From contig NC_080559.1 of assembly GCF_030253575.1 (NCBI RefSeq), positions 30,468,501 through 30,532,500 of the forward strand: a stretch of DNA of 64,000 nucleotides, written 5' to 3'. Under the pieces are notes generated by a model that had not been told where the DNA came from, did not search any database, and worked only from the letters and a program-made list of their open reading frames with translations. Positions 11,233 through 60,822 of the stretch are shown here, in pieces; the stretch's first letter is position 1; each line of letters starts with the position of its first letter. The translations under genes were made by a program, and so were the position numbers. Source of the DNA: Rhododendron vialii. Taxonomy: Eukaryota; Streptophyta; Magnoliopsida; Ericales; Ericaceae.

Positions 11233-13871
11233 CTAAACAAAGTGCTCAGTTGGATATTCATGTTCATACCCATTGTAATCATAGTACAACCTCTCTCCCT
11301 TTGGAATGTCTCTGCTTGCGATCAGTAAAGCCCGACACTCCCCGTTCACATCGAATCTCACACATTTCACATTCTGCTTCTTTTTCCCATCTCTGCACGA
11401 TAACAAAAATGCGATTATTAGATGTAATGAGGAACCATGGAATGTTTTGTCACTTGGAGGAAGGACAAACTTACGGTGTGTGATTATTGATGCCATTTAT
11501 GAATCGAGCAATGTTACTACGCTTGTCTGGACAGATGACTAGGCTTTTTGAAGGATCCGCAGCTGAAATAAGTGTCATCATGCTATCGCCATCGTCATTT
11601 TCACGATTTTCCAAGTAATCGACGTCTCCAACATACTCCGTGATTATAGTTAAATCCTTGATGAACCTATCTGCCTCTACCGTGAATCTGTTAATAACAC
11701 ACAAATGAGTTGACTTCCGTCAAGGAATATAGTATCTAAAAACACTCCATGAAAAATGAACAAAACTAATAAGAAAAACAAACTTAGAATACAAAGAACT
11801 TACCCTTCTCTAGGATCAAAAACAACCATGAGGGGTGGCCACTCCCCTCTCTCCATCATGTTCTTGCACAAGTCCAGGGTTTCCATGTCCTCTTTAGGCA
11901 AAACCTGAATATGATTTTTATTTGCATTTTCAGTCAAATAGCACCAACAAAAAATGATAACCATATATGTAATCACTTAAAACATGATTGAGAGCTATTT
12001 CCCTATGAAATATATGTACATGACATCCGTTGTCACAGAATACTAGAGGGTGAATTCAGTGGACTATGGTTATGGCAAATTCAGCTAAACATTAGACAAT
12101 AAACCACCAGAGACAACACATTAGAACAGTCCTAGCTTGAAGGGCTTTCCGATCATAAGGTTTATGCAACTTTACAATGCTTCACTTTGTGTTCAAACTT
12201 CAAAGGATCCTTAAATTTGATTGTCCGTGTTGATAGCTTCAGAAAGGGCTATTACACCATTTTGGGTTTTCTTTATTCAACTTTTGGGCAATGAAATGTT
12301 ACAATGTTTATTATACCTGCATTCCTCCTTGTTCCAGAGCTGCACAATTTGCTGATCTAGGAGCCATGCCAGGCACATAAGTAAGTTCATTTCTGAAATC
12401 TGCACCGGTTGCTGTCAATGCCGTGGCCAATGAAGCCATTTGTTCTAATCTCCTTATTGGATCTTCACATGGGTTAAACGCCAACAACTTTCTTCTCTTC
12501 TTTGACACCTTCAAAATACTTGTTCTCTTTCTTCTCTTTCGACTATCTGAATTAAAAAAATCAATAGAATTGAGCGGGAGAGGTCATTTCTGTTTTCTAC
12601 ACAAAACAAATAAATAAAAAAAACAAGAAATCAAACTGACAGTGAAATTCCATGTACCTGTACCTGGACTTATCTTCTGTATTGGTTCTGAAGACCTTTG
12701 AATTCGAAAGAAATCAACAATTTTCGTTTGGACAAGAGGAAAACCTGTGAATTAAAGGAAAGAGGTTGTTGTTTTGATTTCTAACCAATGATAAATCACA
12801 ACCCTATATCACAAATTAAACATAGGACAGATGATGCGATGCATGTTAGCTGACCCTAACAAATCAATAACGCCCCATTTGTTTCTGAATTTTTTTTAAA
12901 ATTTAACAACATTTATTAAGATGAGACCATTCACTAAATGCATTCTAACATTTAATTTCTCTTCTATCTAAGAAGATAATGAAAATTTTGTGTAGGCGCT
13001 TTTTGATTCATTGTACCTGATACAAAAACCCAAATATATGGCAATGTAACTGATCCAACTATGCTTACGTGTCCATAAGCGAATCTATATCCTAACTTTC
13101 TGGTTTAACCGCCCCTTTGGATGGTGAAAAAGGCTGAGATAAGAAAGAGGAAAAGACAATAAAAAAAATATTCTATTTTTGTACTTTTCTAACCAAAATA
13201 CTCATTCCAGATGAGTGATTTTGCTAGAAAACATAACCCTTTCTTTCATTTTCTTATGAAATCCCTTAATCCAAAGGGAATGTAAATAAACCACATTGTA
13301 AATTTCAAAATCCCAATTGTTGGAGTCCTTCACAAGAGGTGCAAGTGGTGAGAGTGACAAGAATCAAGGGCTCCACCACAGCCTAAACTTTAGCTGCCCA
13401 TGTTGGACTTTTGCTTCCCATTCCTGATTTGGTTGAAGTTTTGATGTGAAGAGCATTGAATTACTTCTTTGTTTTTTTCTCTTCATAAGAGAGGTGAGGT
13501 TTGAGCGCGTAAACCAATAACAAGAAAAACGCAGACAAATAACTTAACTTAATTTTTTTGGGTAAGGTTAACTTAACTTAATTGACATTACTAAATCGTA
13601 AAACGAGCACAAAATACGTACTTTTGGGTTTTTTCTTGTGGTCCGAACACGAGGGGCAGAACCAGGAGCCTTTGGGGACGGAAGCGAGGATGGGCCTGAG
13701 GCAAAAGAGGTGAAACCCACAATCGCATTTGTCGCAGAGAAGCAGCTCGGACGGGCTCTCGCCGGAGCCGCATTCCTCACAGCAGGTGTCGGTGTAAGAA
13801 TCCTCCCGTTTCGATTTCGAAGAGACAGGACGAGGCTTTGGAGCCATGGTTCTGCGCCTGAGGGAAGCCAT
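11233..13871 (-). CDS. ATXR6: ATXR6-type histone H3 lysine-27 monomethyltransferase (PHD + SET)
   Basis: Six exons on the minus strand: 13871-13622, 12744-12658, 12546-12317, 11904-11804, 11687-11475, 11392-11233. All are bounded by GT/AG and phase-consistent, giving 346 aa, close to the roughly 350 aa of the Arabidopsis protein. Residues about 30-78 form a PHD finger (CEEC, CDKC, FHLFCLRP, SWFCPSC). Residues 89-96, QTKIVDFF, match a PCNA-interacting PIP box. The C-terminal half is the SET domain, with RSNIARFINGINNH and the C-terminal GERLYYDYNGYEHEYP. In the family, ATXR5/6 monomethylate replication-coupled H3.1 at K27 and keep heterochromatin silent. The start at 13871 begins MASLRRR; an upstream in-frame Met reaches through a CT-repeat leader and is less likely. 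The exon 2 donor is a tandem GTACAG/GTACAT pair that could add or drop two residues. Confidence 0.93.
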
Positions 13872-14840
13872 AGATGGGAGAGAGAGTTTGGTTTGAGACT
13901 GGAAGAGAGAGAGAGAGAGAGAGAGTGCGAATTTGGATTGGGGCAAAAGTTGTTTAGATACAGCAAATGGGACAAAGCGAGGAATACGAGGGTTTTGGCA
14001 GAACAATTTGGCGCGATAATTTGGTTTGGCGGGAAGTTGGGGGTGGTTTTTGGCGCCAATGCATCCAAAGGGACCAAATTCTAAATTCTACTAATTTTCT
14101 AGATTTTTGATTTTTTTTTTCTTCATAAAAATTAGAGAGGGGTGGTTTTGAGAATATGGATGAAAAATTATTCCACCCCTCTACGGCATCTCCGTGATAC
14201 TTGCCCCAAATTTATCATTTACCACACATGTCTTTCAGTGCATGTAATAATAACAATGCTAATATGTATTGAACATGAGTCCGTAAATAATTAAACTATA
14301 TTTTTTGTCAACTAACTTTGTGCCATTAAAAAAATGTTTTTTAAAATTTTTTTTTTTTATCTTCAAAAGGATGAAAGAAAACGACGAACGTAACAACTTT
14401 TGTCCTCTTAAATGTGATCATAGGAACTCCACAACTACCATTTAAGTATAAGATGGCATAAGCATCACTCCTATCATCGGGAGGACCCGAACCCAAACCT
14501 CCACTAGGGGGTGTGGCGTACATTGCAACTCCATCATATCCGAGAAATTTTTCAGTGCCTGATGGGTATGTCTCACGTGGTGTCCGCTCGACACTCTCGA
14601 GCCGTCTAATATATTTTTCGATGGCTCATATTAAAACCTTTTCTCTCCTCTCATCCCTTCTATTTCTCTCTCCCTTTCTATTTCAAATCCGAACAGTCCA
14701 AAACTGAATCAGACAGTTTGAATGTGCTGAATAAGCATCATGTGGTACCCGCATGCTACTGAAAAATTCTCGACATATACGATCCACGCCTTTTGAAGCA
14801 AAAAAAAGGCCACGCACAATCCATTTCCCCTCCGTTCCAA
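13872..14840. promoter_or_regulatory. Divergent intergenic promoter between ATXR6-like and Mut7-C genes
   Basis: The two start codons point away from each other and are 969 bp apart, with no other gene between. The ATXR6 side has a GA/CT-rich leader (13908-13925) and a cluster of E2F-like sites at 14007-14056. The remainder (14060-14840) is plain AT-rich DNA with no clear element. Shared regulation is plausible but not shown. Confidence 0.6.
14007..14056. promoter_or_regulatory. Cluster of three E2F-like binding sites
   Basis: TTTGGCGC at 14007-14014, TTTGGCGG (continuing GAA) at 14025-14032 and TTTGGCGC within a near-palindromic TTTTGGCGCCAA at 14049-14056. All fit the plant E2F consensus WTTSSCSS. 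They lie about 136-185 bp upstream of the ATXR6-like start codon, where S-phase genes usually carry them. Arabidopsis ATXR6 is known as an E2F-responsive S-phase gene, so the placement fits. Confidence 0.7.
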
Positions 14841-17800
14841 ATGGAAGCCGAAGACCGTAACCCGCCCACCATCTACTCCGTCTCTTCCGTCGACTCGCCC
14901 GAGTTCACCCGCTTCACTCGCGCCCTAACTCGCTCATCCGTCATCGGCCTCGACGCCGAGTGGCAGCCTCTCCGTGTCCACCAGCCCACGTTCCCCACCG
15001 TCTCCCTCCTCCAAATCGCCTGCCGATCAGCCGGCGACGACGACGATTCATCGGTTTTCCTACTGGACCTCTTAGCGATTCCTCTCCCGTCAATCTACGG
15101 ACTGTTGAAGGACGTGTTCGTTTCACCAGAGGTGCTGAAACTGGGGTTTAGGTTCAAGCAGGATCTGGTTTACTTGTCTTCCACTTTCTGCTCTCAAGGC
15201 TGCGACCCTGGTTTTGATAGGGTGAGTTTTATTTGTCTGTTTGTAGTCAAACGCAATCAAAATTGCGCAATTCAGGACTCCTAAGTTTTTAAATTTAATT
15301 GGAATTAAGAATAAATGGAGTCTCGTGTGAATGTTTTTGTTAAATTTTGCTCAATTTGTTCAGTTTTGTTTTGCGTGTGGTGATAATTATGGACATTCAC
15401 TTGCTGCTAGGGCTGCAAGCGAGCCGAGTCGAGCTTTGTTGTGTTGGAGCTCGGCTCGTTTACTAAATGAGCCAAAAATTCGACTGTAAACGAGCCGAGC
15501 CAAGCTTTGGAGCGCTTACTAAATGAGCCCAAAACTCGAGCTTGAGCTTGGCCAATTACTAAATGAATCAAGCCGAGCTGAGCCTCGCGAGCAGCTCGAT
15601 TCGTTTGTAGCCCTCTACGAAGCACGGGTACTTCAGAAATGTACCGGGTACGGCAAAATTTGATTGGGTACTTTTGATAATTTTGGGTACGGCATGGGTA
15701 CGTTTTAGCCTAAAATGATTTTTTTTTCAAAATTTCAGGGATTTTTTTTGTAAATAATTATAAAATATGGGCTTATTGTGTAAATTTTGTCTTTTATATA
15801 CACATTCACGTGTTTACTGAGTCACTGAGAGAGGCAGCGGTCTAGGGCTCCAAATCGGAACAGAAGACGTAAGTTCTCTCTCTTTTATATACACATACAC
15901 GTTTACACTGAGTCAATGTTTGTAAGCACTGTTGGTATGTAAGGAACAAGGAACTCATCTAGCTTTGATCTAGTCACGTTGAACTTGATGTATGAACTTC
16001 GAACTTTTATCTATGTTGCTTTTTGTTGGTAAAATGGGTTTATATTTCATTTAAAGCAATAAAAAATAGAAAAAATTTATATATCTATTCGCCGTACCCC
16101 TGCCGTACCCTACTTTTTTGGGGTTTTGCCATTTCCCGTACCCGTACCGCGTACCTGTGCTCCATAGGTAGCCCTACTTGCTGATTATTATGAATTATAT
16201 ATACCGCTTTGCGATGCATATTCAGTTATCTTGAAATTGCTAGCCCCTTGGATGGAGGGATTTCATAAGAAAAGAAAAGAAAGGATTATAGTTTATTTTC
16301 AAATCACTCATTTGAATTGAATTTTGGTGAGAAACGGAGAGAACAATACAAAAAATTTTGATTGGCTCTTCCCCTTTCTTATCACACCCAGAAGTTAAAG
16401 CCCTTTGATAACATAGCTGTCGAGTATACATTGAGTTACTTAATTGTAAAGAGTTCTGTATGGCATTGATAAATTTTGTAGTTTTTTTGTCCCTGCTATA
16501 ACGTTTCGGTTTATAAGTTATGCATCATTTATACTCCCTCGTGCAAAAAAAAATGGTTTGAGCATGGCATGATTGCCCTCGCAAGACTTCTCTGCTCAAT
16601 GCATGTGATAATGTCCTTGAGAAGCATTTCTTTTTGTGGTATTTGAGATGAGGTCTTTATTTGCAACAGAAAGAAGTTGTATGCCATTAAACTGTGCGGT
16701 TGACAAATAGATTCCATTTAGATAGTTCATTTTCAGAACGTATAAAGTAGCTGAAAGTACAATATCCGGTTTCATTGTATCTTATTTGGTGGAAATGGTA
16801 AATAGGTGGAACCCTTTCTGGACATTACAAGCATTTACAATTATCTACAACACAAGCAACTAGGAAGAAAGATACCGAAGCAAATCAAGAGCTTGGCAAC
16901 CATCTGTGAAGAAGTGTTGGGCATCTCTCTTTCAAAGGTTTGCTCTTGAAAAATCGCATTTTGTTCGTTGGATGGATTTAAACCCGAGTTTTCTCTTACA
17001 GTAATACTTGTTGTAAGCTGTTTCTTTCTGGGCCTAAATTTGAATTGCAATTTGAAAATTGCGTCTAAGAATCTTCCAACACAACTCATTTCTGGTAGGA
17101 ACTTCAATGTAGTGATTGGTCATGTCGTCCCCTTACAGCAGAGCAAAAAGCATATGCAGCTGAAGATGCACATTGTTTGCTTGAAATCTTTAAGGTCTTC
17201 CAGATCAAGGTTAGCAAAGAAGGTTTGTGACACTTAACAGTTTGAAATCGTTAAACTTGTTTAACCATGGTATAGGGAATAGTAAGGGACAGAAAATCAG
17301 ATTATGCACTTGACAATTAAAAACATCAGAAAGGGGATCTGAAGTAATTGGCTCAATATCTACATCTCAGAGCAGCTTTTTCTGTGAGAGGCAATAGAGG
17401 AACTCTGAGAGATCTCATATGTAGCCCTTTGGGCATCTGCTTTCTTCCGTATAGTGAAACCCTCATCGTCTGATTGCCTATGGAGTAGGTATTTGTTACT
17501 GAACCACGTAAAATCTCCGAGTTCTCTGTGTTTGCTCATTTCTCTATCTCTTCCGTCGTTTGTTCAACTACCAATAATCATGTCCGCTTTATGTGTTTGT
17601 TAATGCTTCCACACAACAGGATCAACATGAGTTTTGATTGTTGAATGAACGTCTTTTAATTCATTTGCCCTTTAAATTTTGTAACTTGTTTTCATCCTCC
17701 TGTTTCTCGTTAAGGGAGGTTAAATACTAGACGACATCAAAGAATGCATATGAGGACCAGCCTTTGACAGGTTTCTCAATGTAGTACAGTAGCAGCTTTA

Positions 17801-19888
17801 TTAATTATCCACTTATTTTCTTTTTCTGATGATCAAATGTTGTAGGATGTTTTCTACTTGTGAGCTTTGAACAGAAAATCATCTTCTCTTTCTCTGGTAT
17901 AAATCACCCTATTGTGCTGCATGAAGCATCTAATGCCCCACAAATTGATACCATTCTGAAATAAAGGGATATATCATATATGTAGCCCACCTGCTGCATT
18001 TCAGATGAAATGCAGAGACAAGTCTTTTGGTTTCTAATTCGAATGCCTGTGGTCTTAAATAATATTCAGTCTGCTTATAAAAACTAAAATGTTAGCGTTG
18101 GTCAGAGTACTATAAATTTCTTTTATTCTTTACTGCAGGGGATTCTTTCGGTGAAGTCACTGAACTTAGTTTCTCTCATCTAGATCTTGGGTTGAAAGAG
18201 ATTCTTGAGAAGCCTAATAGTTGTGATAAAATCTTGCGGACCAAATTCAGTGAAGCTTTAGAGATTGTCCGAGCTACTACATCTTCTGAATCCTCTCATA
18301 GAGTACTTTCTGCAAGGAGAGAAGTACCTGATGTGTCATGCATGAATACCATACCAATGGATGGTTCGCTATTGCAGATTGTTCAGATACATGGTGATAG
18401 AATCCTATTAAAGGAATCTGACAGAAAACCTAAAATGTCCAGAAAGAAAGGAAAAAGAAAACCTTCTGAAAGTTTGATATGCAAAGAAAGGCGATCAGAA
18501 AAGGTCGATGATTGGCAAGGCCTTCCACCTTGGGACTTGTCCTTGGGTGGTGATGGATGCCCGAAGTTTCTATGTGATGTGATGGTAAGTGGCAGTACTT
18601 TAGTAAGTTGTTGCTTGGAGATTCTTTTCTAATGCCGTTATTTGCAAGTGTACTAGTTCCTTTGGAATTACGAGGCTTGGGATTTGATGTCCCTCTTCTC
18701 TCCTGCTATGATCGTTGTTTGAAAATTGCATTCCTCTTAGTTTCCAATTAGATGTGATTGGATATGTCTCAATATTCAATTATGAGAGCTGAATAAAAGG
18801 ATCAAGCAGGTAGAAGGCTTGGCAAAACATCTTCGGTGTGTTGGAATAGATGCTGCAGTTCCATATGCTAAAAAGCCTGAAACCAGGTGTTATTCTTTTG
18901 AATAAATTTTCCTCATTTTAGAATTGTGATTCTTTCTTTGTTTTTTATTTTCTAATGTAACTTTATTTGCCACTTGTTTTTCATTAGGGGCTTAATAGAC
19001 CAAGCACAAAGAGAGAAGAGGGTGCTTCTGACACGAGATGTCAAGCTTTTGAGACATGGATATCTATTAGAAAATCAAATATACAGAGTGAAGAGTCTTC
19101 TGAAAAATGAACAGCTGCTTGAGGTATATATTCAATGTAGTCAGTGGTGCATGCTAAGTTTGGACTTAGTTATATTGTTGGCATGCATACTCATTCCTAG
19201 TTATTACCATAGTAAGTCCCAATATAACCTCAAGCGTCTAGGGTTTTAAATAAAGGTGGTTACATATTGTATACCGTAACGTTTCCTGATACCGCGAGTT
19301 AAAACCCTGAGCTTATCATGAAAGTGAGTACATAGTTGTGGATGCTAATATGATGAATCCTTGCAGGTAATTGAGACTTTCCAATTGAAAATTATTGAGG
19401 ATCACCTGATGTCAAGGTGCACCAAATGCAATGGTAGGTTTGTTCAAAAACCACTAACAACAGAGGAGGCTGTTGAAGCTGCGAAGGGTTTCCAAGTGAT
19501 TCCCAACTGTTTGTTTAACAAGAATTTAGAGTTCTGGCAGTGCATGGACTGCAACCAACTCTACTGGGAGGTAGACATTCGATGAAATTTCTGCTTCAAT
19601 CATGGTTTTATCTGCTTTTTTCGTAGTGATTACATGCTTGTATCATGAATCTAATGTCAGCATACCAGAATCATATAATCAATACTTGTGGGAGTCATGG
19701 TTCTACTATCTTTATGTTCTCTTTGATTACTTTGTTACGAAAACTCTCATCAAACATGTCATTTTTTTGTCTTTGTTGTGATATATGATTGCGTATGGTT
19801 TAAGATAACACCTGTAATATTGTTACAGGGAACCCAATACCATAATGCAGTACAGAAGTTCATCGACGTTTGCAAGCTAAATGCGTAA
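14841..19888 (+). CDS. DEDDy 3'-5' exonuclease fused to Mut7-C RNase-like domain
   Basis: Eight exons: 14841-15221, 16806-16937, 17099-17222, 18139-18584, 18810-18886, 18988-19123, 19367-19570, 19829-19888; all GT-AG and phase-consistent, 519 aa. Residues about 20-210 are a WRN/RNase D-type exonuclease with motif I GLDAEW (D38, E40), the 'LGFRFKQDL' block, and motif III YAAED (Y190, D194), so catalytic residues look intact. Residues about 350-505 are a Mut7-C domain: CDVMVEGLAKHLRCVG, LLTRDVKLL, then two zinc-like pairs CTKC and CMDC. The same architecture occurs in C. elegans MUT-7 and human EXD3. The plant role is not established. The middle (residues about 215-350) is basic and probably disordered. 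An in-frame Met at 14793 would add 16 residues; 14841 is preferred because the conserved part begins there. Confidence 0.9.
15409..15614. mobile_element. MITE rich in GAGC-CGAGCTCG motifs, in intron 1
   Basis: Starts agggctgcaagcga and ends tcgtttgtagccct, giving inverted ends (agggct.caa). The interior repeats motifs like gagccgag and ctcggctcg and can fold extensively. The sequence just before it, acttgctgct, is matched 9/10 by acttgctgat after the nested element (16176-16185), consistent with a roughly 10-bp Mutator-type target duplication. A related GAGCTCGGCTCG-rich stretch lies at about 43080-43300. Confidence 0.6.
15615..16167. mobile_element. hAT-like MITE with perfect 8-bp target duplication
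   Basis: About 553 bp, starts ctacgaagcacgggtac and ends gtacctgtgctccatag, imperfect inverse repeats that continue into gtaccggg / ccgtaccgc stretches. It is flanked by a perfect 8-bp duplication, gtagccct, at 15607-15614 and 16168-16175. The 8-bp target fits the hAT superfamily. The interior is non-coding. Confidence 0.8.
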
Positions 19889-22003: not shown

Positions 22004-23280
22004 ATGGACATTTCTCAGTGGCGACAGGTAAAGAAACTATGTCTTCTCCCTCCGAAATCATCATACATGCTATCTCCTCACTTGGGTCTTGACCGGTTTT
22101 AAAGACTAATCCAGAATGCTTTGGGTTTTAAGAAATTTTCTTGTTGGTTGCAACTTTTCTTAGATATCTTCCATTTTTAGTTTGCAAGTACTCACCCCCT
22201 TCTCTCTTTTTCTTTGTTTTCCCACCATCTGATATGAGGAATGATATGAACACAACCCCGGACACAACTTTATCGAGAGTCTTTCGATACATATGAGTCC
22301 ACATACCACATACATCCAACTGTTTCGGACACAGTTGTGTCCGATAGATAGGCGTGTTCCTAGAATTTTCCATCCAATAAAAGGGCCCCCCGCAAGCAGT
22401 CGTAATTTGTTCTTTCTGCCTTGCTTGTTTGCCTTTTTACTTTCTTAACTTCTCTATTTTCCCCTACATATTTTCCTTTCGTGCTCGACTGTAATTTTGT
22501 TTTTTCCTCATACATAGAATAGAGCCCTTCTCTTATCCAGTTATCCTCTTTTTGGTTTTTTGTTTTCAGGGGATGGAGTCAAGGGGTATAACTGAAATGA
22601 GGAAGCCAATTAGGCCACAAAAAGAACAAGCATTGAACTGTCCAAGGTGCAATTCAACCAACACAAAATTCTGCTACTACAACAACTACAGCCTCTCTCA
22701 GCCAAGATACTTCTGCAAGTCTTGTAGGAGGTACTGGACTGAAGGTGGGTCCCTCAGAAATGTTCCAGTAGGTGGAGGCTCCAGGATTAACCACAAGAAA
22801 TCATCATCATCAAAGAATAATCTCCCTCATGATCTGACCCCGCCAACAAATTCCTCACACTCTGCCATCCAAAACCCTAAATTTCACCAAGGCCAAGACC
22901 TCAACCTTACTTGCCTACCCCCTAATACTAGTGATCACAACACCATTTACCCTAACCCTTTTGGATATAGGATATTTGACTCAGATGGGGCAATTTCTGA
23001 GCAAGAATTCAAGCCAATCAGCCTTAATATTTGTCTAAACGGGTTTGGAAATGTGTATGGATCAAGGTTTCCAGGGGTTCCCCGTCCAGTCCTGACGCAC
23101 AAATACACACAAATAACTTTCCCACCAACTCCTCTCCCATGCGCGCCTGACTTTGAAGAGAGTACAAGTGCAAGGCCATTTTTCCCTTTTGAGGAGTTGA
23201 AGCTGCATAATAAAGGGCAAGGAGAGCCTAGCACAACTGGGCACTGGAGTGGGATGTTGGGTGGAGGGTCTAATTGGTAA
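22004..23280 (+). CDS. Dof zinc-finger transcription factor
   Basis: Two exons: 22004-22027 (eight codons, MDISQWRQ) and 22570-23280, joined by a 542-bp GT-AG intron, giving 244 aa. Residues 32-60 carry the Dof zinc finger CX2CX21CX2C (CPRC...CKSC), followed by [20 protein letters not shown], the DNA-binding signature that reads AAAG cores. The short first exon encoding M-D-x-x-Q-W is shared with the DOF4.6/DOF2.x-type plant subgroup. So are the C-terminal FFPFEELKL block and the terminal [13 protein letters not shown]. Members act in vascular tissue and seed regulation, but the role here is unassigned. The body is short for the group. A CT-repeat leader precedes the start and another CT tract lies 43 bp beyond the stop. 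Confidence 0.92.
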
Positions 23281-31037: not shown

Positions 31038-32260
31038 CTACCAATTATCCTTCACAATTTTTGACTTTTCAAGTATGAATTTCCCTTCCTTGTACTTCTG
31101 TGATGCCTCGTAAGCTCTTTCATACTTCCACCCCAAGACCTCACGGCAGTCACCACAATAGACATCGGCAACTGTGTGAAGACCAGTCAAGAGGTGCCTA
31201 TCTTCTTTTGGCCCCATGACAATGTTCATTGTGTGAGAGAAAAGAAAGGCTCTACCATTTCTTCCCTGGAAACAAGAGATTGGAAATTTGAAATTAACAA
31301 ACCTACTTAAAACTTTTGCTTGCGCCAAAACTGAAAGGAAACGTTCTGGCATCTCAAAACATTCAGGAAGCGCAAAATAGAAAAAATCTAGGGCCACGTT
31401 GAATTTGATTGTCAGCGAGGGGTCCTATAATCCCATCGCATGAGTATCACACCGGATTAATAACGAGAGCATATCTCATGTCATTGTTGGATGGGTTGTC
31501 CCCCAAATTGGCTTTTGTTTTGGATAAGCAATAATGCTATTGAAAAGGCATGAAGGGGATGCCACCCATGTACAAAAGAAAGCAAAGAACAAAAGGCCAA
31601 AACACCGACAATCCCAGAAATTCTACTCAATCAACAGTAAATGCCAAAAATATCTAGCATGGCAAGAAATTGATCAATGGAAGGATAGCTCACTTTCGAC
31701 TCCCAACTAAACGAACTGGAAGAGTATGCACTCCCTCCGCAAATTGGTGCATTCAAATGCTACGAAGGAATGGCAAGGGATATATAATCCAATTTCACAT
31801 ATAATCCCGGGCAATCTAATGGGCCTAACAAGGGAAACAACCCTATAATGTAAGTTAAATTGAACCCGAATCCACTCTTCGCAAATTGACTAACAACAAT
31901 ATGCTCTTTCCATGAAATTCGGAAGATATGGTGGTTCAAAAGTTGGAAACATAACCAATATCTCTTCAAGAAGAATCATTCACGTCAATAACTTGTATCT
32001 CCAGTTAGTTGCCCTCGGTCAACGCTTTAATATAAAAACGAACCCGTGAACAAAGAACACACATCAAATTAGAGGTAAAAATGATAGACAGGGCAAGGTC
32101 AATTCTATACAAAAGAACTATAGTTCAACAACGGTTCTTACTACATGGATCAGAGGTATTCATTCACCTGAAAAGCCTTGGAAACTATATCGTCGTGAAG
32201 CGAAACATGATTTCGACAATTGCAGCAGCTGTACAGGCGAGGCCCGAAAAATTCAGCCAT
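31038..32260 (-). CDS. Yippee-like zinc-binding protein
   Basis: Two coding exons on the minus strand: 32260-32168 (31 codons, [20 protein letters not shown]) and 31265-31038, joined by a GT-AG intron of about 0.9 kb; 106 aa, the usual Yippee length. The Yippee fold needs two CX2C pairs about 52 residues apart: here C12-C15 (CCNC) and the VYCGDC pair, with the intervening [14 protein letters not shown] and [17 protein letters not shown] blocks. The tail [18 protein letters not shown] closely resembles plant Yippee-like proteins. Structurally the domain resembles cereblon and MIS18; the molecular role in plants is unclear. High confidence in the model. Confidence 0.93.
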
Positions 32261-50617: not shown

Positions 50618-50670
50618 TACTAATTCTATGTTCCGTTTGGTCACCCACAACCTTGGAGTGCATTGAATCA

Positions 50671-50713
<43 letters not shown>

Positions 50714-50714
50714 C

Positions 50715-53700
50715 ATGGCCAGCATCCCCATGGATGAGCCGGCGACGGTTTCAGACGAGTGTTCGATCAAACAAGTGGATATAACAGTGCCGAAAACCGA
50801 CGACCCAACGCTACCCGTCCTCACATTCAGGATGTGGGTTCTGGGTCTCACTTCCTGCGTCCTGTTGTCCTTCGTGAACCAGTTCTTCTGGTACAGGACC
50901 GAGCCGCTGACCGTCACCTCCATTGCCGCCCAGATTGCGGTGGTTCCCATCGGGCACCTGATGGCCCGGACCGTGACGAAGCGGGTTTTCTTTCCGGGGA
51001 CGAGATGGGAGTTCACGATGAATCCGGGGCCGTTCAACGTGAAGGAGCATGTCTTGATTACCATATTTGCGAATTCGGGTGCCGGTAGTGTTTATGCCAC
51101 CCATATATTGAGTGCTGTTAAGCTTTTTTACAAGAAAAGCCTCTCGTTTTTGCCTGCCCTTATTATCATGGCCACAACCCAGGTTCGATGCTCTCTCTAG
51201 CTCTCTCTGCTTGCGCAAAATGTATTGGATTTTGAGGAGGAAAAAAAAAAAAGCATTTTTGGAATTTATTTGAAAACTTTGTGGGAAAGATCATCTATAA
51301 GATTGTTAACCTTTGTTTCTGGGGTAAGAACCCATCTTGTACACCACCTTGGATGGTGAGAAAGGAGGAATTAGAAAAGAGATGGGAGTCATTTCTTTCC
51401 AAATCTCATCAGTTTGGGTGAGATTGGTTGAGAAAGGGAAAGGACCAATCAATTTATATATAACCCAACAACATTTTCCTTTCATTTCTCACGAAATCAC
51501 TCCATCAAAATAGGCTGAGAGATGAGAGAAGATTAAAGAAATGCTTCTCTATTCTCAAAAGTCGTTATGAAAAATGAATGAGGTATGAAAATAATAATGA
51601 CCAATGACCCGGGGATGCTGAGGGCAGCCAGCCCTACAACTCTGTAGTGCGGTCAATTTTGAAATGGACCGAGCAATAGACGTTTCAGATCAATAAAAGC
51701 TTGCATTAATTTGAGCAATTCATGCCAAAATGGATGGCCGAATTCTGAAAGGTGCAACTCACCATGGCCAAAAGGAAAATAGTTTAACACATGTCTGAAA
51801 CACATCACACATCACAGGTGTGTTCAGGATCGTCCGATGTTGTGGATTTTATGTACACCACTTGCATGGTACAGTTCCGCACACTCTGGACAGATGTGTC
51901 TAGATCTGTATCTGAACATATGCACCCGTAACATTGCTAATGTTCTTTGTTTCTTTTCGAATCGATGAATTGTGAGTAGAGAAGAAGACTATAAGGCAAA
52001 AACAGTCAACAGAGTTGGGAAAACAAGAAGACAACAGATATGCATTGACAGAAGAATTTTTTTTCATTACCTACAATTTCTTTGAATATTTACAAGTAAT
52101 TTAACATCTTGTATTCTGTCTCCTTAATCGGTATCAATAACAATAGACTTCAATAAAGCATGATGAGCATTAATTCCTTGATATTTTTGTGTCCTGTTTA
52201 CAATATAGAGGGTTCATGCTCAGTTGGTTAGGAGCAGATAGTCATAGTTTCGTGGTAATTTGAAGTAAATTAGGAAATCCTCAATAATGCTATGAAATGG
52301 AGTTTTTTGGGGGCAACTTATCATGAATGGAGTGTTTACGGCTCCAGCTCCGGCTCATACTGACAATTAATAATTTGAATATTTTACCGGTAAAAGTATA
52401 TTATTATTGATAAAAGATTTAAAACAAATCTGGACCATTGAAAACTCTAACCGACGGTTGCGACCACTTGGACTGCACCTCTGCAGTCCAAACACTAGAC
52501 TGCAGACAATCCATGTTCTAAATTTACTAAACTGTGATTGTAGGTTTTGGGGTTTGGCTGGGCGGGGCTTTTCCGAAAATATCTAGTTGAGCCAGGAGAA
52601 ATGTGGTGGCCGTCTAATCTTGTTCAGGTCTCCTTATTCAGGTAGATTACTCATGTCCTTGTAATCATTCGTCGTCCAAATCTCTGTTTTAATTTTGCGA
52701 GCTTTTTGTGATCCAAATTTGAAACTGTTGCAGGGCTCTGCATGAGAGAGAGAAGAGGCCCAAAGGCGGCACGACAAGGACCCAATTCTTCCTCATAACC
52801 TTCATTTGTGCATTCGCTTATTACGCCTTTCCTGGCTTCCTCTTTCCACTCTTGACTTCATTCTCTTGGGTCTGTTGGCTCGCTCCCGACTCGGTTTTGG
52901 TCCAACAAATAGGCTCGGGCTACAAAGGCCTCGGAATTGGGAGTATAGGACTGGACTGGTCCGCCATTGCCTCGTATCTCGGGAGCCCACTGGCCAGCCC
53001 GTGGTTTGCCACTGCCAACATAGCCATTGGGTTCGCCTTTGTGATGTACGTAATGACACCGATCTCTTACTGGCACAACATCTACAACGCCAAGACCTTT
53101 CCGTTGTTCTCCAACAAGCTTTTCATGTCAAATGGTTCTGAATACGATATCACGAATATCGTGAACTCCAACTTCCACCTTGACGTGGATGCTTATGAGA
53201 AGTATGGACAGTTACATATGAGCACGTTCTTTGCCATGACATACGGCCTCGGATTCGCCACTCTTTCTGCTACCGCCGTGCATATCCTGCTCTTTCACGG
53301 ACGGTAAAGACCACGCTGCTTTTGCATTTTGATTCTGTAGATCGCACATTGTTAGCTCAAGCTGTGGAAACTTTATATCCATTTCAAAACCAATTGGCAA
53401 TGAGTGAAGAGGTCCAGATGTTATTAAGTAATCACCCATTCCACTCTCAAGCAATGTGAAATTTGTTAAGGAAATAGAGTCCCATATTGTTTGGGAGTGG
53501 AATGGGTGATCACTTAATAACATCTGGGACCTCTCCACTCTTTGCCAATTGGTTTTGAGATGGATATAAAGTTTCCACATGGTATCAAAGCGGGGCCCGT
53601 TCTACCCCCACATTTTAAAAAATTCGCAATCCACACGCCACGATGACAGACTAGCAAAAAGGTTGCACGATGATAGGACCCAAAAGTGGCCACACGTGAC

Positions 53701-55899
53701 AGACCTCAAACGCGGTTGCACGTGAGGGGGGATGTTAAGGAAATAGAGTCCCATATTGCTTGGGAGTGGAATGGGTGATTACTTAATAACATCTGGGACC
53801 TCTCCACTCATTGCCAATTGGTTTTGAGATGGACATAAAGTTTCCACAGAATTCATTTCCTTAACATCTTCCCTCACGTGCAACCGCGTTTGAGGTCTGT
53901 CAAGTGTGGCCACTTTTGGGTCCCTCATCGTGCAGCTTTTTTGCTGATCTGTCATCGTAGAGTGTGGATTGTGAATTTTTTAAAATGTGAGGTGGAATGG
54001 GCCCCACTCTGATACCATATAGAAACTTTATATCCATCTTAAAACCAATTGGCAATGAGTGGAGAGGTCCATATGTTATTAAGTGATCACCCATTCCACT
54101 CCCAAACAATGTGGGATTCTATTTCCTTAATATCCCCCCTCACGTGCAGCCGCGTTTGAGGTTTGTCACGTGTGGCCACTTTTGGGTCTCTATCATCGTG
54201 CAGCTTTTTTGCTGGTCTGTCATCGTGGAGTGTGAATTGTTAATTTTTAAAATGTGGGGTAGAACGGACCCCGCTTTGATACCTATGCCATAAAAACTAT
54301 CTGCCATGGGTGGCTATATAGAAAAAGCCAACCACGAACCATTATCAATAAGTTAGACCATTGGCATATGGATGCTTGCCTGTGCTTGGAGTTCAAATGT
54401 TCCATGGTTAGAAATCATAAGCAATTATCAGCAAAAGCTCTTAGAATCGTTTGTCCTTCCAAGGCGAAAAGCTGATTTGACCCTTTGACAAATGCAGGGA
54501 ACTGATGGAGCGAAGCAGAAGTGCCTTCGGAGAGAAGCAGAAGATGGACGTGCATAGCAGGCTGATGAAGGTATACAAACAGGTGCCTATGTGGTGGTTT
54601 CTTGCCATTCTAGTGGTGAACATCGCGCTCATCTTCTTCGCTTGCATCCATTACGAGGAGACTCTTCAATTGCCTTGGTGGGGTGTATTGCTTGCTTGCG
54701 CCATTGCGATTCTTTTCACCCTTCCTATTGGTATCATCGCTGCCACCACAAACCAGGTAAACTTCGCAACCAACCTTTTCTTTTATATATGCATAGATAG
54801 ACAAGGATCGAGTACTTTTTGTGAATTGTATCGTTGAACAGGCACCGGGCTTGAACATCATCACAGAGTACATCATTGGGTATGTGTACCCAGAGCGCCC
54901 TGTTGCGAATATGGCCTTCAAGGTGTACGGATATATTAGTATGACTCAAGCTTTAACATTTCTGTCGGATTTTAAGCTTGGTCACTACATGAAGATTCCT
55001 CCTAGAGCAATGTTCATGGCTCAGGTTAGCTTTTGTTTCTAAGTTACGTCCTGCCTTCGATGTTGGGTATCCTTTTCAGAATCAATTTTCCCCGCGTAAT
55101 TTTGAGAATTGGTTTTGGTTTAACGCATTTTTGTAGGCCATTTTCTTGGAAAGAACCTAATTCTGGAAAATACTACAAAATCTCTTCAAATTCTTGTAAA
55201 CCAGTTTGGCTTCTGAAAGTGTTTTGAAAAACAGCAATCAAATAGAAACTTCACTGAAATCTAAATAGAAAACATTTTCAGGTGGTGGGAACGCTTGTAT
55301 CGGTCCTAGTATATCAGGCAACTGCGTGGTGGCTAATGGGAACCATCCCGCACCTCTGCGACACCTCATTGCTGCCGCCAAATAGCCAGTGGACATGCCC
55401 AATGGACACTGTTTTCTACGACGCATCTGTCATTTGGGGCCTCATTGGGCCCCGGAGAATCTTTGGCAACCTCGGCATCTACTCAAATGTCAACTGGTTC
55501 TTCCTCGGCGGTGCCATCGCCCCTCTACTCGTCTGGTTGGCTCACAAAGTGTTCCCCAATAGGAACTGGATCCGGCTTATCCACATGCCGGTGTTGCTCG
55601 GCGCAACGTCTATGATGCCCCCGGCTACTGCTGTCAACTACACCAGTTGGCTCATCGTCGCGTTTGTTTTTGGGTTTGTTATGTTTAGGTACCACCTCAA
55701 GTGGTGGGAGCGGTACAATTACGTTCTTTCAGGCGGGCTGGATGCCGGGACGGCTTTCATGTCGGTGTTGTTATTCGTCGGGCTGCAAATGCAGAACATT
55801 GAGCTCGATTGGTGGGGTGGGAGTCCGGATAGGTGCCCGTTGGCGGCTTGTCCAACTGCCGAGGGAGTTTCAGTTAAGGGCTGCCCAGTTTTCTCTTGA
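50715..55899 (+). CDS. Oligopeptide transporter (OPT family)
   Basis: Six exons: 50715-51182, 52544-52641, 52734-53303, 54498-54756, 54842-55024, 55282-55899; GT-AG and phase-consistent, 731 aa, typical for plant OPTs of the peptide-transporter clade. Family signatures: NPG (residues 103-105, in [11 protein letters not shown]) and KIPPR (516-520). Many hydrophobic segments suggest a polytopic plasma-membrane protein. Conserved blocks: [104 protein letters not shown], with the C-terminal CPLAACPTA. Family members carry peptides, glutathione conjugates or metal chelates by proton coupling; the substrate cannot be told from sequence. A partial tandem copy follows, and intron 3 holds a nest of TRIM elements. 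Confidence 0.93.
53363..54284 (-). mobile_element. TRIM-type LTR retrotransposon array, minus orientation
   Basis: In OPT intron 3. On the minus strand the order is: internal region starting with a tRNA-Met-like primer site (54133-54284), LTR (54018-54132), internal region (53867-54017), LTR (split, 53363-53463 and 53849-53866). LTRs are about 116 bp and internal regions about 150 bp with no coding capacity, as in TRIM elements. One terminal LTR is absent. The layout resembles the product of LTR recombination between tandem copies. A second element of the same family lies inside it in the opposite orientation. An old, non-coding fossil. Confidence 0.75.
53464..53848 (+). mobile_element. Complete TRIM-type element nested in the array
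   Basis: LTRs at 53464-53579 and 53733-53848 (116 bp each, TGTTAAGG...TTTCCACA), a primer site tggtatcaaagc at 53580-53591, and a purine tract gaggggggat just before the 3' LTR. The internal region is 153 bp. The two LTRs differ at only about four positions, so it is the younger insertion. It carries no proteins and would depend on enzymes from elsewhere. The flanks aaatt and gaatt may be a 5-bp target duplication. Confidence 0.85.
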
Positions 55900-56768
55900 A
55901 AGTCGTCACTGATATGACCATTTCAGTTTTTAGTTTGTTCAGAATAGGAAATTGACTTATACACTCCAATTTTTACAACATACACTCCTTTTTTTGTCTT
56001 TATTTGATATGAATTTACTCTATTGCCCTTAATATGTGAAAAAATAAACTTGTGAGAGGGTAAAAAAATAAATTCATATGAATAAGGACAAAAAAGGAAG
56101 TGTATGTGGTAAAAAGGGAGTGTAGAAGTCAATTTCCTTCAGAATATTATCTCTGTAAATAGTTTATGTCTGGATTCTACAGTGATTGCTAGTTCTTATT
56201 TGGATATCAGATGGTAGTATGGTACACGCAGAACTGCTAAGGACACTAAGTTTCTGGGGGCTCTCTCTTTATTTTTCCCAAATCTAAGTACTCTCTGGTT
56301 TATTTTTGTGGTACTGAATGTTTGTCTATACCAATGAGCCCTTGAGAGAGAGAGAGAGAGAGAGAGCTGAATGGTCAGCATAGAAGAAAAGAATTTTGAA
56401 ACATGGCTGTGCTGAAAGGCAATTCGAGTTCAACCAACAAATGGAGATCTACTGAAAAAGAAAGATCTCTACTTCCTTGAGGACCCCGACCTCGTGCTGC
56501 TAATGCGCTGATAAACCTTCAGCTGGGAAGCCAGAATTGGTAGCAATCGCCAGTTAGCCATACGGAGACTTTAAACTACATGCGAAATAATAGGTCCTGC
56601 CTTTGATATATGGTTGGACGATTATGAAATGTTTAACATTCTCCAAGGCCTTGCAAAATTCTTTTGAGTAGCAAACAGATCGATGAAGGTTAGTATCACT
56701 TATATTTTCGGAGTTCGTAAGGCTAAAAAAAAATTAAAAAAAAGAGAGTAGAGGGAGCCGGAGAGAGG
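55900..56768. other. Spacer between the OPT gene and its partial copy
   Basis: Contains the 3' flank of the OPT gene and a (GA)n tract at about 56344-56367. At about 55985-56130 there is an inverted pair (tacactcc-ttttt-ac / gt-aaaaa-ggagtgta), a small foldback. No counterpart of OPT exons 1-3 was found here. Confidence 0.5.
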
Positions 56769-57455
56769 GTATACAAACAGGTGCCAATATGGTGGTTTCA
56801 CATCTTTCTATTGTTGAACCTCGCTCTCATCTTCTTTGCTTGCTTCTATTACCATGAGACTATTCAATTGCCTTGGTGGGGTGTTTTGCTCGCTTGCACC
56901 ATCGCGTTTGTTTTCACCCTTCCGATTGGTGTCATCGCTGCCACCACAAACCAGGTAAAATTCCAACCAATTAACCTTTGCCTTTGCAGACACACATGGA
57001 TTGATTGGGTATGGTTTTGTGATTTGTATTGTTGAACAGGCACCGGGATTGAACATTATCACGGAGTATATTTTCGGGTCTGTGTACCCAGGACGTCCTG
57101 TTGCCAATATAGCCTTTAAGACGTTTGGATACATTAGCATGATCCAAGCTTTAACATTTCTAGCAGACTTGAAGCTTGGTCACTACATGAAGATTCCTCC
57201 TAGAACAATGTTCATGGCTCAGGTTTAGCTTTTGTTTCTTGCCATTTGAATTCTGCCTTGCAATGTCTGCTTTTTTTCTTTTTTCAAAATCAATTTTTGA
57301 AAATAATTTTTGTATTTCAAAAAACTTGCTTACGGTCAGTTTTCTGAAAAAGGAACGTAGCTTGAGTAAAGTACTTTCAGATCTTGTAAACTATTTTCGC
57401 TAAGAATAACCACAATATTGACATGATGGACGTTATATTATCATACGCAGTTCTT

Positions 57456-57732
57456 AATTAAAAACTACTCTTTTTTTTAATCGGCAAAAGATAAAGATTT
57501 ATTAACTCCAAACACAAAGTACAGAGCTAATAGGATTATGGATACACCAGTCTGACCATCCATGACTCTCATCTCCTAATCATATGGAAGAAAAACTAAG
57601 TTGAATCCAACAGATTGAGTCCAAACCAGAGGAAAAACACCTAAAAAGCCTAAGTTGGAGAGACACCGACCCAAAAACCCAAACGGGCTAAGCCCACACA
57701 CCTAAAATCTAATCAAACACAAATTAAAAACT
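57456..57732 (-). mobile_element. 5'-truncated LINE tail in an intron of the OPT duplicate
   Basis: An 11-bp direct repeat, aattaaaaact, at 57456-57466 and 57722-57732, brackets DNA starting with a T-rich stretch and 'aatcggcaaaagataaag'. It is a reversed A-tailed retroposon like those at 1042 and 2643. Non-coding here. Confidence 0.65.
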
Positions 57733-58180
57733 GCACTTGAAAACTGTTTTCAAATACAACAATCAAACACAAATGCCCAGAAATCTAAAATCTAATCACA
57801 TTTTCAGGTAGTAGGGACACTTTCTATCGGTCATCGTATATCAGGCAACTGCTTGGTGGCTGATGGGAACCATTCCCAACCTCTGCGACACCTCATTGCT
57901 GCCGCCTAGCAGCCAATGGACGTGCCCAGGTGACCACGTTTTCTACGACACCTCAGTCATTTGGGGCCTAGTTGGGCTCCGGAGGATCTTTGGCGATCTC
58001 AGCCAATACTCAATGTTAAACTGGTGCTTCCTCGCTGGTGCCATCGCTCCTCTACTAGTTTGGCTTGCCCACAAAGCATTTCCCAATCAGAAATGGATTG
58101 GACTAATCCACATGCCAGTGTTGATTGGTGCAACAGCAGAAATGCCCCTGGCTACTGCGGTCAACTACACAAGTTGGTTT

Positions 58181-60822
58181 TGTTGGGGTCCACCCATAGT
58201 GGTGGGTTATTTTGTGTAACACCCTGAGTGGGTGTTGAGCGTATTTACTCTTGGAGTCCCTTATATATAGTCGTAAACCCTATTAGGGTTAGGGTGTGAC
58301 ATAATGTGAGGGAGAGGGTGAGGCGAGCGTGGGGGGCCGGTCTGTGGCCTCCCGGAGAGGGAGAGGAACCGGCGTATGGTTCCCGGAGAGTTTTTTCATC
58401 TTTATTGTATATTGTGTGAATATATAATCAAAGGGAGTTTTTCTCTGAAATCACTGCGTGTGCTTGTGTGTGTGGTGTCCCTCACGGTCCTAACAATTGG
58501 TATCAGAGCGGGGTTGAAGAAGAGGGTCACCGGAAAAATCACGGATTCGATTTCTAAAAAAAAGGGTTGCTCACAAACCTCGTGTTTTGTCACCCGAAGA
58601 AGAAAGCACAGAGCATGGCCTAAGCTGGGTTCTCGGTCGAACCGTTTGAAAACTCAATCGGACTGGTAAGGGTTGTGCACCTCACTGAGACGAGTCTATA
58701 GGAGGTGACGGGGTCGAGTTTCGTCGCCGGATGAAGGCTCGGGAGCCATTCGATCACAGCGGGCGGAGTCAGCGACGGGCAGAGAGGTTGTTTTGAAAAG
58801 CCCGCGGTCATGGATGATCGAAGATGAGTTTTGAGCACTGGGTTGTGTTCACCTCGAGGAGACGATCACGGATTGGGGTAGAACGTCGCCGGAGGAGCTC
58901 GGAGGTGGCAGCAATGGCCGTTCGAACGGCGGAGGCGAGTCTGCATAGAGGCTGTTCAAGGGTGGTTCGTACCAGAAGTTGTCGGATGCGAGATTGGAGC
59001 ACGGGGTTGTGTTCATCTCGAGCTCGGGAGTGGTTGGAAAATCACCGAGCGAAGCCAGAGTAAGCTGCACGCGCCTCTGGAAGCGGCGGCACGTTAGATC
59101 TACGCGCTCGTGTGTGCTGCACGCGTGGGACCGTGGCTGGCACATGCCAGCAGGTGGGGTGGTGGCACACGCCAGGCGTGCGCGGTCAACGCCTAGTCAG
59201 CCGGTCAACGCTGACGGGGACTGCCACATCATACGCCACGTGGCAGACATGTCATCGCCATGTGGCACTGCCACGTCATCAGGTCACAATGGCGTGTCTG
59301 GTCAACGGTCAAACAGCTCGGTCAAACAGGAAGAATATTCCAGATTGGTTTTTTGCAATTTCGTAGCCGTTCGGACTCCGTTTTTTGCGAGTGAGTAGTC
59401 GATTTTGACTATCCTGACGTTCCGGATCCCAACCATGCGTTCTATTTTCTTATTGGAGGATCCTAGGCTGAGGCTAATGTTTGGTTGAGTAGGAATCGGA
59501 AGTTTAGAGACAGTTCGGGTTGTGAGGAGGCTTGGTGCAACATAGGGATCAGCTTCGGACGGCCATGGGAGGTCGTGAGCAGTCGTGGGAGACCTAGTGA
59601 GTAAGGATACATTCCTTCGAGTGTTGCATCCCGGTTTGGGGGGTGCTGGAGAGCTCGTCTGGTAATGACACAAGCACTTACTAGGGACGATATATCAGAG
59701 ATCAAGGGTTGCAGGGAAAAGCCTGAAGTGGAACGAGGATGGACCGAGTGACAGGAGAAGATCCGAGAGAGATGATTGAGAGTGGTAGGATGCATTGGGA
59801 GTGACAGATGTGATGAAGACCTATCATCAGGAGTTGCAGTTGTGATTTGAGCTGCATGAGGATGATGATGGGCAACCGATACATGCTTGTGGAGAGTACA
59901 GACAGATAGAGCTGATATTTGGTACGAGACAAGTAGTATGAGTTTTTTGTGACAGTGAATAGGTGAAGCAACAATTGCGGAGACACACAGGAAAGGCATT
60001 GGAGTACGAGGAGTCATGACCTGAGATGTACAGGAGTGTCGGTTACCAAATCAGATTGTGTGTGGAATAGTCTGTAGACGGCGGGCAACTGGTTGTTTGG
60101 GAGATGTTCACGGGAGCTCTGGACAGAGGGATGGAGATGGAGACCAGACGATGTATCGCTGGGATCTCTTCCTTTGTGGATTTTGTGATTGAATTCTCTC
60201 TATGGTATGCGGCCGCATGAGAAGGAGAGATGAAGTCACAGATTGCATCCTGGTAAGGATGCGGGCAATTCGGTCAAGGGGGTGCGAGCACTCTATTGAG
60301 GGGATGCTAAATATCAGCGGAGATGTCGGTATTGCAGCCGGAAAGTGCGCGGGTTTAGCCTCGGAAGATCTAGTCTTGCAAAGAGACATTCAGTCAGGCA
60401 GGAGTACTTCGGTGAGGGGGTGCTGGCAGCTAGACTTGGAGTGACACATGCGCTTTGCTAGAGAGGCTGGACAGATGCAACAATTGCCCACTCTGAGTGG
60501 AGGGGGTGATTGTTGGGGTCCACCCATAGTGGGGGAGTTATTTTGTGTAACACCCTTAGTGTTGAGTGTTGAGTGTATTTACCTTTAGAGTCCTTATATA
60601 TAGTTGTTAACCCTATTAGGGTTAGGGTGTGATATAATGTGAGGGAGAGAGTGAGGCGAGCGTGGGGGGCTGGTCTGTGGCCTCCCAGAGAGGAACCGGC
60701 TTATGATTCCCAGAGAGTTTTTTCATCTTTATTGTATATTGTGTGAATATATAATCAAATGGAGTTTTTCTCTGAAATCACTGCGTGTGTTTGTGTGTGT
60801 GGTGTCCCTCACGGTCCTAACA
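58181..60822 (+). mobile_element. Non-autonomous LTR retrotransposon in the OPT duplicate
   Basis: A 2.64-kb element with LTRs at 58181-58495 (315 bp) and 60511-60822 (312 bp), both TGTTGGGG...CCTAACA. A primer site tggtatcagagc (58498-58509) matches the plant initiator-Met tRNA; a purine tract (gagtggagggggtgat) precedes the 3' LTR. A perfect 5-bp target duplication, ggttt, lies at 58176-58180 and 60823-60827. The LTRs are about 92-94% identical by eye, suggesting an insertion some millions of years old. The 2.0-kb internal region is GC-richer than its surroundings and shows no gag, protease, reverse transcriptase or integrase, so it is a non-autonomous fossil between TRIM and LARD in size. 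Confidence 0.9.

Follow-up and report, generated by a model that had tools for sequence, protein, structure and literature searches.

When two genes begin back to back, does the DNA between them act as one promoter or as two? The question is raised by a 64,000-nucleotide stretch of Rhododendron vialii DNA (hereafter the window; C3:30468501-30532500 in an assembly of 13 contigs and 532.6 Mb, which was also used for the genome searches), whose genes are of plant type and in which a predicted ATXR6 gene and a predicted MUT7-like exonuclease gene point away from each other. A first-pass annotation of the sequence had proposed that the two share a divergent promoter with an E2F cluster and that they could form a silencing pair tied to the cell cycle. 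Our analysis led to a different reading, to which we give a probability of about 0.7: the two genes most likely have separate promoters, set back to back within the interval, instead of a single shared one, and the exonuclease is probably not controlled by E2F.

Gene models and protein families

The predicted ATXR6 gene occupies 11233-13871 on the minus strand. Its six coding exons (13871-13622, 12744-12664 or 12744-12658, 12546-12317, 11904-11804, 11687-11475, and 11392-11233) were modelled from GT-AG splice sites and translation, and the predicted protein has 344 residues (or 346). Alternative in-frame splice donors of exon 2 were observed at 12658-12664, 6 bp apart (GTACAG and GTACAT). The exonuclease gene, predicted at 14841-19888 on the plus strand, has eight coding exons supported by splice dinucleotides and translation, and encodes 519 residues. 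The predicted start codons (13871-13869 on the minus strand for ATXR6 and 14841 on the plus strand for the exonuclease) are separated by exactly 969 bp (13872-14840), and the modelling of both frames end to end with GT-AG introns bears out the divergent layout that had been described.

Pfam placed a PHD finger (PF00628) at residues 31-75 of the ATXR6 protein and a C-terminal SET domain (PF00856) at residues 221-332. Between them, residues 89-96 (QTKIVDFF) form a PIP box as that motif is commonly defined. This layout of PHD, PIP box, and SET is that of Arabidopsis ATXR6 (At5g24330), an H3K27 monomethyltransferase, which carries the same three elements. The top PDB match was 4o30 (E=2e-105; molecule name ‘ATXR6, putative’), and the five best matches of the model were all ATXR5/6 chains, whose names mix ATXR5 and ATXR6. 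The assembly has one other locus of the ATXR5/6 type, on C10; it contains pieces of PHD and SET and is predicted to have a longer N-terminus. A longer N-terminus also distinguishes ATXR5 from ATXR6.

In the exonuclease protein, Pfam found a DNA_pol_A_exo1 domain at residues 19-207 (E=1e-21) and a Mut7-C domain at residues 354-510 (E=3.2e-38). A search of NCBIfam gave four matches, all far beneath their cut-offs. The nearest solved relatives were PDB entries 7jw2 and 7jw6, whose chains are named mut-7 homolog, and the Mut7-C part matched the structure of C. elegans MUT-7 (8q66, E=0.00013). D38, E40, D108, Y190, and D194 are candidate DEDDy residues, and zinc-finger CxxC pairs are present in Mut7-C at 450-453 and 491-494, with 37 residues between them. 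A 3'-5' exonuclease followed by Mut7-C with two CxxC pairs is the arrangement of C. elegans MUT-7, vertebrate EXD3, and insect Nibbler. Thus, Pfam domains and PDB matches confirmed at the family level the identities that both genes had been given.

A silencing role for the exonuclease had been suggested by analogy with worm MUT-7, which a literature entry links to small-RNA production. According to passages of PMC11347159, the insertion of worm MUT-7 that binds MUT-8 spans aa 784-868, and plants carry a minimal Mut7-C form. The worm site of this insertion lies between the cysteine pairs, and the 37 residues found there, unlike the situation in C. elegans MUT-7, fit the minimal plant form described in those passages; judged by length alone, the insertion appears to be absent from the exonuclease. 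It is a feature of Caenorhabditis and is not common to the whole MUT-7 family. Because only 37 residues stand where the worm protein has its MUT-8-binding insertion, homology does not imply a silencing role, and the analogy with MUT-7 is weak.

At5g24340, which we take to be the Arabidopsis exonuclease gene lying next to ATXR6 (At5g24330), is not mentioned by locus name in the literature searched. A plant sequence has been aligned in the literature found on Mut7-C exonucleases in Arabidopsis, and that search gave no functional work; the literature searched on Nibbler, EXD3, and MUT-7 gave no silencing role for this family in plants. In the passages available from PMC7154835 and PMC6445950, MUT-7 is named solely in animals.

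When the assembly was searched with the exonuclease, the matches comprised its own locus and two fragments on C8 and C12. These fragments (G000:C8:28424859-28425056, 70% identity, and C12:19886168-19886371, 66% identity) resemble residues 42-105, and both contain internal stops.

E2F-like sites near the ATXR6 start

Three sites matching WTTSSCSS had been noted close to ATXR6. We found them as claimed, at 14007, 14025, and 14049, together with a minus-strand overlap at 14053 and a weak match at 13940. The first is TTTGGCGC (14007-14014), and the other two belong to near-palindromes, TTTGGCGGGAAG (14025-14036) and TTTGGCGCCAAT (14049-14060), all given on the plus strand. A WTTSSCSS match alone says little, because the window as a whole contains 35 of them, with 42.6 expected from shuffling. 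Four of the matches fall within 60 bp, a number reached in none of 200 dinucleotide shuffles of the whole window, in which the biggest cluster had three matches (5 shuffles), and in none of 2000 shuffles of the 969-bp interval. Since 14049 and 14053 represent one palindrome read twice, the independent sites number three; a cluster of this size was reached by 5/200 window shuffles and 8/2000 interval shuffles. The five matches that the interval has in all were equalled or exceeded in 6/2000 interval shuffles.

TTSSCGSSAA occurs in the 64 kb only at 14026 and 14050. TTSSCG is matched five times in the gap, always within 14008-14059 and at a distance of 137-188 bp from the start of ATXR6; 14060-14840 contains no match. 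The paired pattern TTTGGCGGGAA-N5-35-TTTGGCGC, which was written from the ATXR6 locus itself, recurs at two places elsewhere in the 532.6 Mb of the assembly, and a reversed-pattern control at none. The two other places are G000:C1:9096982 and C10:1790692. The cluster on the ATXR6 side is thus real and stronger than first stated. Its E2F-like sites are separated from the start of ATXR6 by 136-189 bp and from that of the exonuclease by 781-834 bp. Clustered E2F consensus sites near the start codon, as in an E2F target promoter, are found for ATXR6.

Control of ATXR6 by E2F is already published knowledge. Passages of PMC2754662 describe Arabidopsis ATXR6 (At5g24330) as E2F-regulated, and in those of PMC11658180 the Arabidopsis promoters of both ATXR5 and ATXR6 carry E2F sites; the titles and extracts listed for E2Fa targets and ATXR6 in Arabidopsis contained nothing further of use. 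The gene studied here resembles its Arabidopsis counterpart in having promoter E2F sites, and a clear E2F architecture therefore goes with ATXR6 in the R. vialii genome too. Unlike Arabidopsis ATXR6 as described (a comparison with descriptions, not base by base), it has three sites, two of them near-palindromes, within 54 bp. By analogy with the Arabidopsis gene, the stretch of roughly 190 bp before the start of ATXR6 is probably an E2F-responsive promoter that would drive ATXR6 in S phase. The orientation of the sites cannot tell which gene they serve, because they are nearly palindromic.

A partial ATXR6 duplicate and an ATXR5-type gene on C10

Alignment showed that the segment 13376-14278 (minus strand), which covers the E2F promoter, exon 1 of ATXR6, and the first part of intron 1, has a duplicate at G000:C10:18590680-18591559, with 86% identity over 928 columns. 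The duplicate is truncated; its stop-free matched stretch is 93% identical to the ATXR6 protein over residues 1-84. Two of the three E2F-like sites still match in the copy: TTTGGCGCCAAT is unchanged and TTTGGCGGGAAG reads TTTCGCGGGAAG, and no match is left at the position of TTTGGCGC. The duplicated block ends at 14278, short of the transposon described below. A truncated duplicate of promoter and exon 1 on another chromosome is a further difference from Arabidopsis ATXR6.

Since the exonuclease matches in the assembly are confined to its own locus, C8, and C12, there is none near either the C10 copy of ATXR6 or the C10 ATXR5-type gene. A local search with the exonuclease of two C10 stretches of 18 kb and 20 kb, which took in about 9.4 kb on the upstream side of the ATXR5-type gene and 2.9 kb on its downstream side, likewise yielded no match better than chance level (E 0.43 or worse). 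It is clear from the C10 copy that the ATXR6 block need not be accompanied by the exonuclease.

We also considered whether the C10 copy reveals selection on the E2F block, and rejected this. The block is 96.3% identical, compared with 93-95% in five of the six other sub-blocks and 87% in the remaining one. Among 289 sliding windows of the alignment, 36 have equally few differences, the E2F block included. The E2F block is thus not clearly more conserved than its surroundings, and the copy gives no evidence of selection.

E2F sites were likewise rejected as a distinction between ATXR6 and its paralogue. In the 969 bp before the ATXR5-type gene on C10 there is no TTTSSCGS, and there are two TTCCCG, which lie 27 and 58 bp away from the putative start of this gene; under the looser published definition of an E2F site (TTssCG, in passages of PMC11658180), both genes have sites.

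A MITE beside the exonuclease start

On the exonuclease side of the interval, family copies, ends, and target-site duplications identified a MITE of 230 bp with inverted ends at 14542-14771. Since it ends 69 bp before the exonuclease start, transposon sequence makes up about three quarters of the 300 bp that lead up to this start. The element contains a G-box core, CACGTG, at 14574-14579, and the 9-bp target-site duplication at its flanks has decayed (ATCATATCC / GACATATAC, 6/9 identical).

Members of the family occur at 72-83% identity in at least 39 other places on all 13 contigs, a count for which 40 of 669 candidates were scored, the copy at 14542-14771 included. Among eight aligned copies, the best 9-bp flank match over six end offsets was 9/9 in three, 8/9 in two, 6/9 in two (one being the copy at 14542-14771), and 4/9 in one. 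When 14533-14783 was folded as single-stranded DNA, it formed a hairpin (z = -3.52), and none of 200 shuffles was equally stable. The inverted-end test is weak when taken alone, as 6 of 1000 random segment pairs scored equal or higher, and the MITE call therefore rests on the family copies. Inverted ends, a length of about 230 bp, 9-bp duplications in several copies, and a high copy number are features of MULE-type MITEs, and from the rule for a 9-bp target-site duplication we presume that the element belongs to this type. The MITE is old, not recent. Without it and one 9-bp duplication, the start codons would be 730 bp apart.

Discussion

We infer that E2F binds the cluster, that each gene has its own transcription start, and that the exonuclease is independent of the cluster. 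Transcription of the MUT7-like exonuclease would then begin in a separate region at the other end of the gap, in or adjoining the old, presumably MULE-type MITE, and would probably be free of E2F control.

In passages of PMC2851598, Arabidopsis divergent pairs less than 400 bp apart are on average more co-expressed than farther pairs. The 969 bp between the start codons, or 730 bp without the MITE and its duplication, weigh against sharing, though not decisively, as 400 bp is a distance between transcripts and describes an average effect; if the 5' leaders together exceeded 569 bp, the pair would fall below that value. In having head-to-head genes within 1 kb the locus resembles plant bidirectional promoters; it differs from them in the 969 bp between start codons, in the one-sided sites, and in the transposon remnant opposite.

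Several points speak against two separate promoters. The pair may adjoin in Arabidopsis too, if the locus number that we take for the exonuclease is right, and neighbours kept together for that long would be in keeping with some shared control. The MITE may also have been tolerated or co-opted, with a shared element left intact.

Other explanations have to be weighed against, or alongside, two back-to-back promoters. One that is compatible with them, and for which we see about even odds, is that the adjacency is an ancestral order kept by chance or by chromatin accessibility and has no regulatory meaning; passages of PMC2851598 put the co-expression of farther Arabidopsis neighbours down to shared chromatin. 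A second, also compatible but unlikely, is that the MITE supplies the present proximal promoter or 5' leader of the exonuclease, including the G-box core, in which case regulation of this gene in the R. vialii lineage would derive from a transposon. The position of CACGTG at 14574 within the element and the mere 69 bp from its end to the start codon agree with such a role, but the core promoter may sit inside those 69 bp.

It is improbable that ATXR6 and the exonuclease share one bidirectional E2F promoter and are expressed together from it in S phase to silence repeats as a pair. This proposal is in line with the divergent layout inside 1 kb, the rare site cluster, and the possible adjacency in Arabidopsis, and for each protein a family member is involved in silencing in some species: ATXR6 is so in Arabidopsis, according to an abstract, and MUT-7 through its reported link to small RNAs. 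Against it stand E2F-like sites on one side only, a MITE on the exonuclease side, and a start-codon gap of 969 bp set against the 400-bp range of the average effect for Arabidopsis transcripts in the extract of PMC2851598. A MUT-8-binding insertion would find little space in the 37 residues that separate the cysteine pairs, and the literature searched held no functional work on the plant exonuclease. The shared promoter is thus not supported, as the sites lie far from the exonuclease start with the MITE between and the ATXR6 block exists alone. The silencing pair fares no better, given the weak MUT-7 analogy. The first-pass annotation had itself marked control of the second gene as inference. 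In the broadest version, the divergent pair would be conserved among eudicots, and its joint expression in S phase, driven by a single E2F element, would link the maintenance of heterochromatin with the trimming of RNA; this too is improbable.

If the conserved, co-regulated pair were nevertheless real, an Arabidopsis allele might be affected. Passages of PMC8784105 describe atxr6-1 as a T-DNA insertion in the ATXR6 promoter and atxr5 atxr6-1 as a hypomorph. The insertion may then disturb the exonuclease too, the atxr5 atxr6-1 phenotypes would need rechecking for the neighbour gene, and a plant MUT7-like nuclease would be tied to S-phase heterochromatin upkeep. Titles and abstract beginnings on divergent E2F bidirectional promoters in Arabidopsis included none on the ATXR6/exonuclease pair, and nothing relevant to ATXR6 with an adjacent exonuclease was among the matches listed, the passages of PMC12243177 being unrelated. 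On our preferred reading of two promoters, the locus illustrates that a neighbour gene can look co-regulated while a transposon sits between.

Additional features of the window

An inverted repeat pair at 13132-13278 and 16244-16389, one member in intron 1 of each gene, is 76% identical over 149 columns. We rejected it as a link between the genes, since it has the look of a further repeat family, possibly one of short transposons. The remaining genes were surveyed with Pfam on 20 chosen frames of the 42 stop-to-stop frames of at least 110 aa. A Dof zinc-finger transcription factor gene lies downstream of the exonuclease at 22573-23280, and an open frame at 31041-31424 on the minus strand has a Yippee/Mis18 domain match. 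Exons of an oligopeptide transporter (OPT) were found at 50667-55896, and 57815-58216 gave a second OPT match, which corresponds to the family's C-terminal part; the matches within 50667-58216 suggest a tandem copy.
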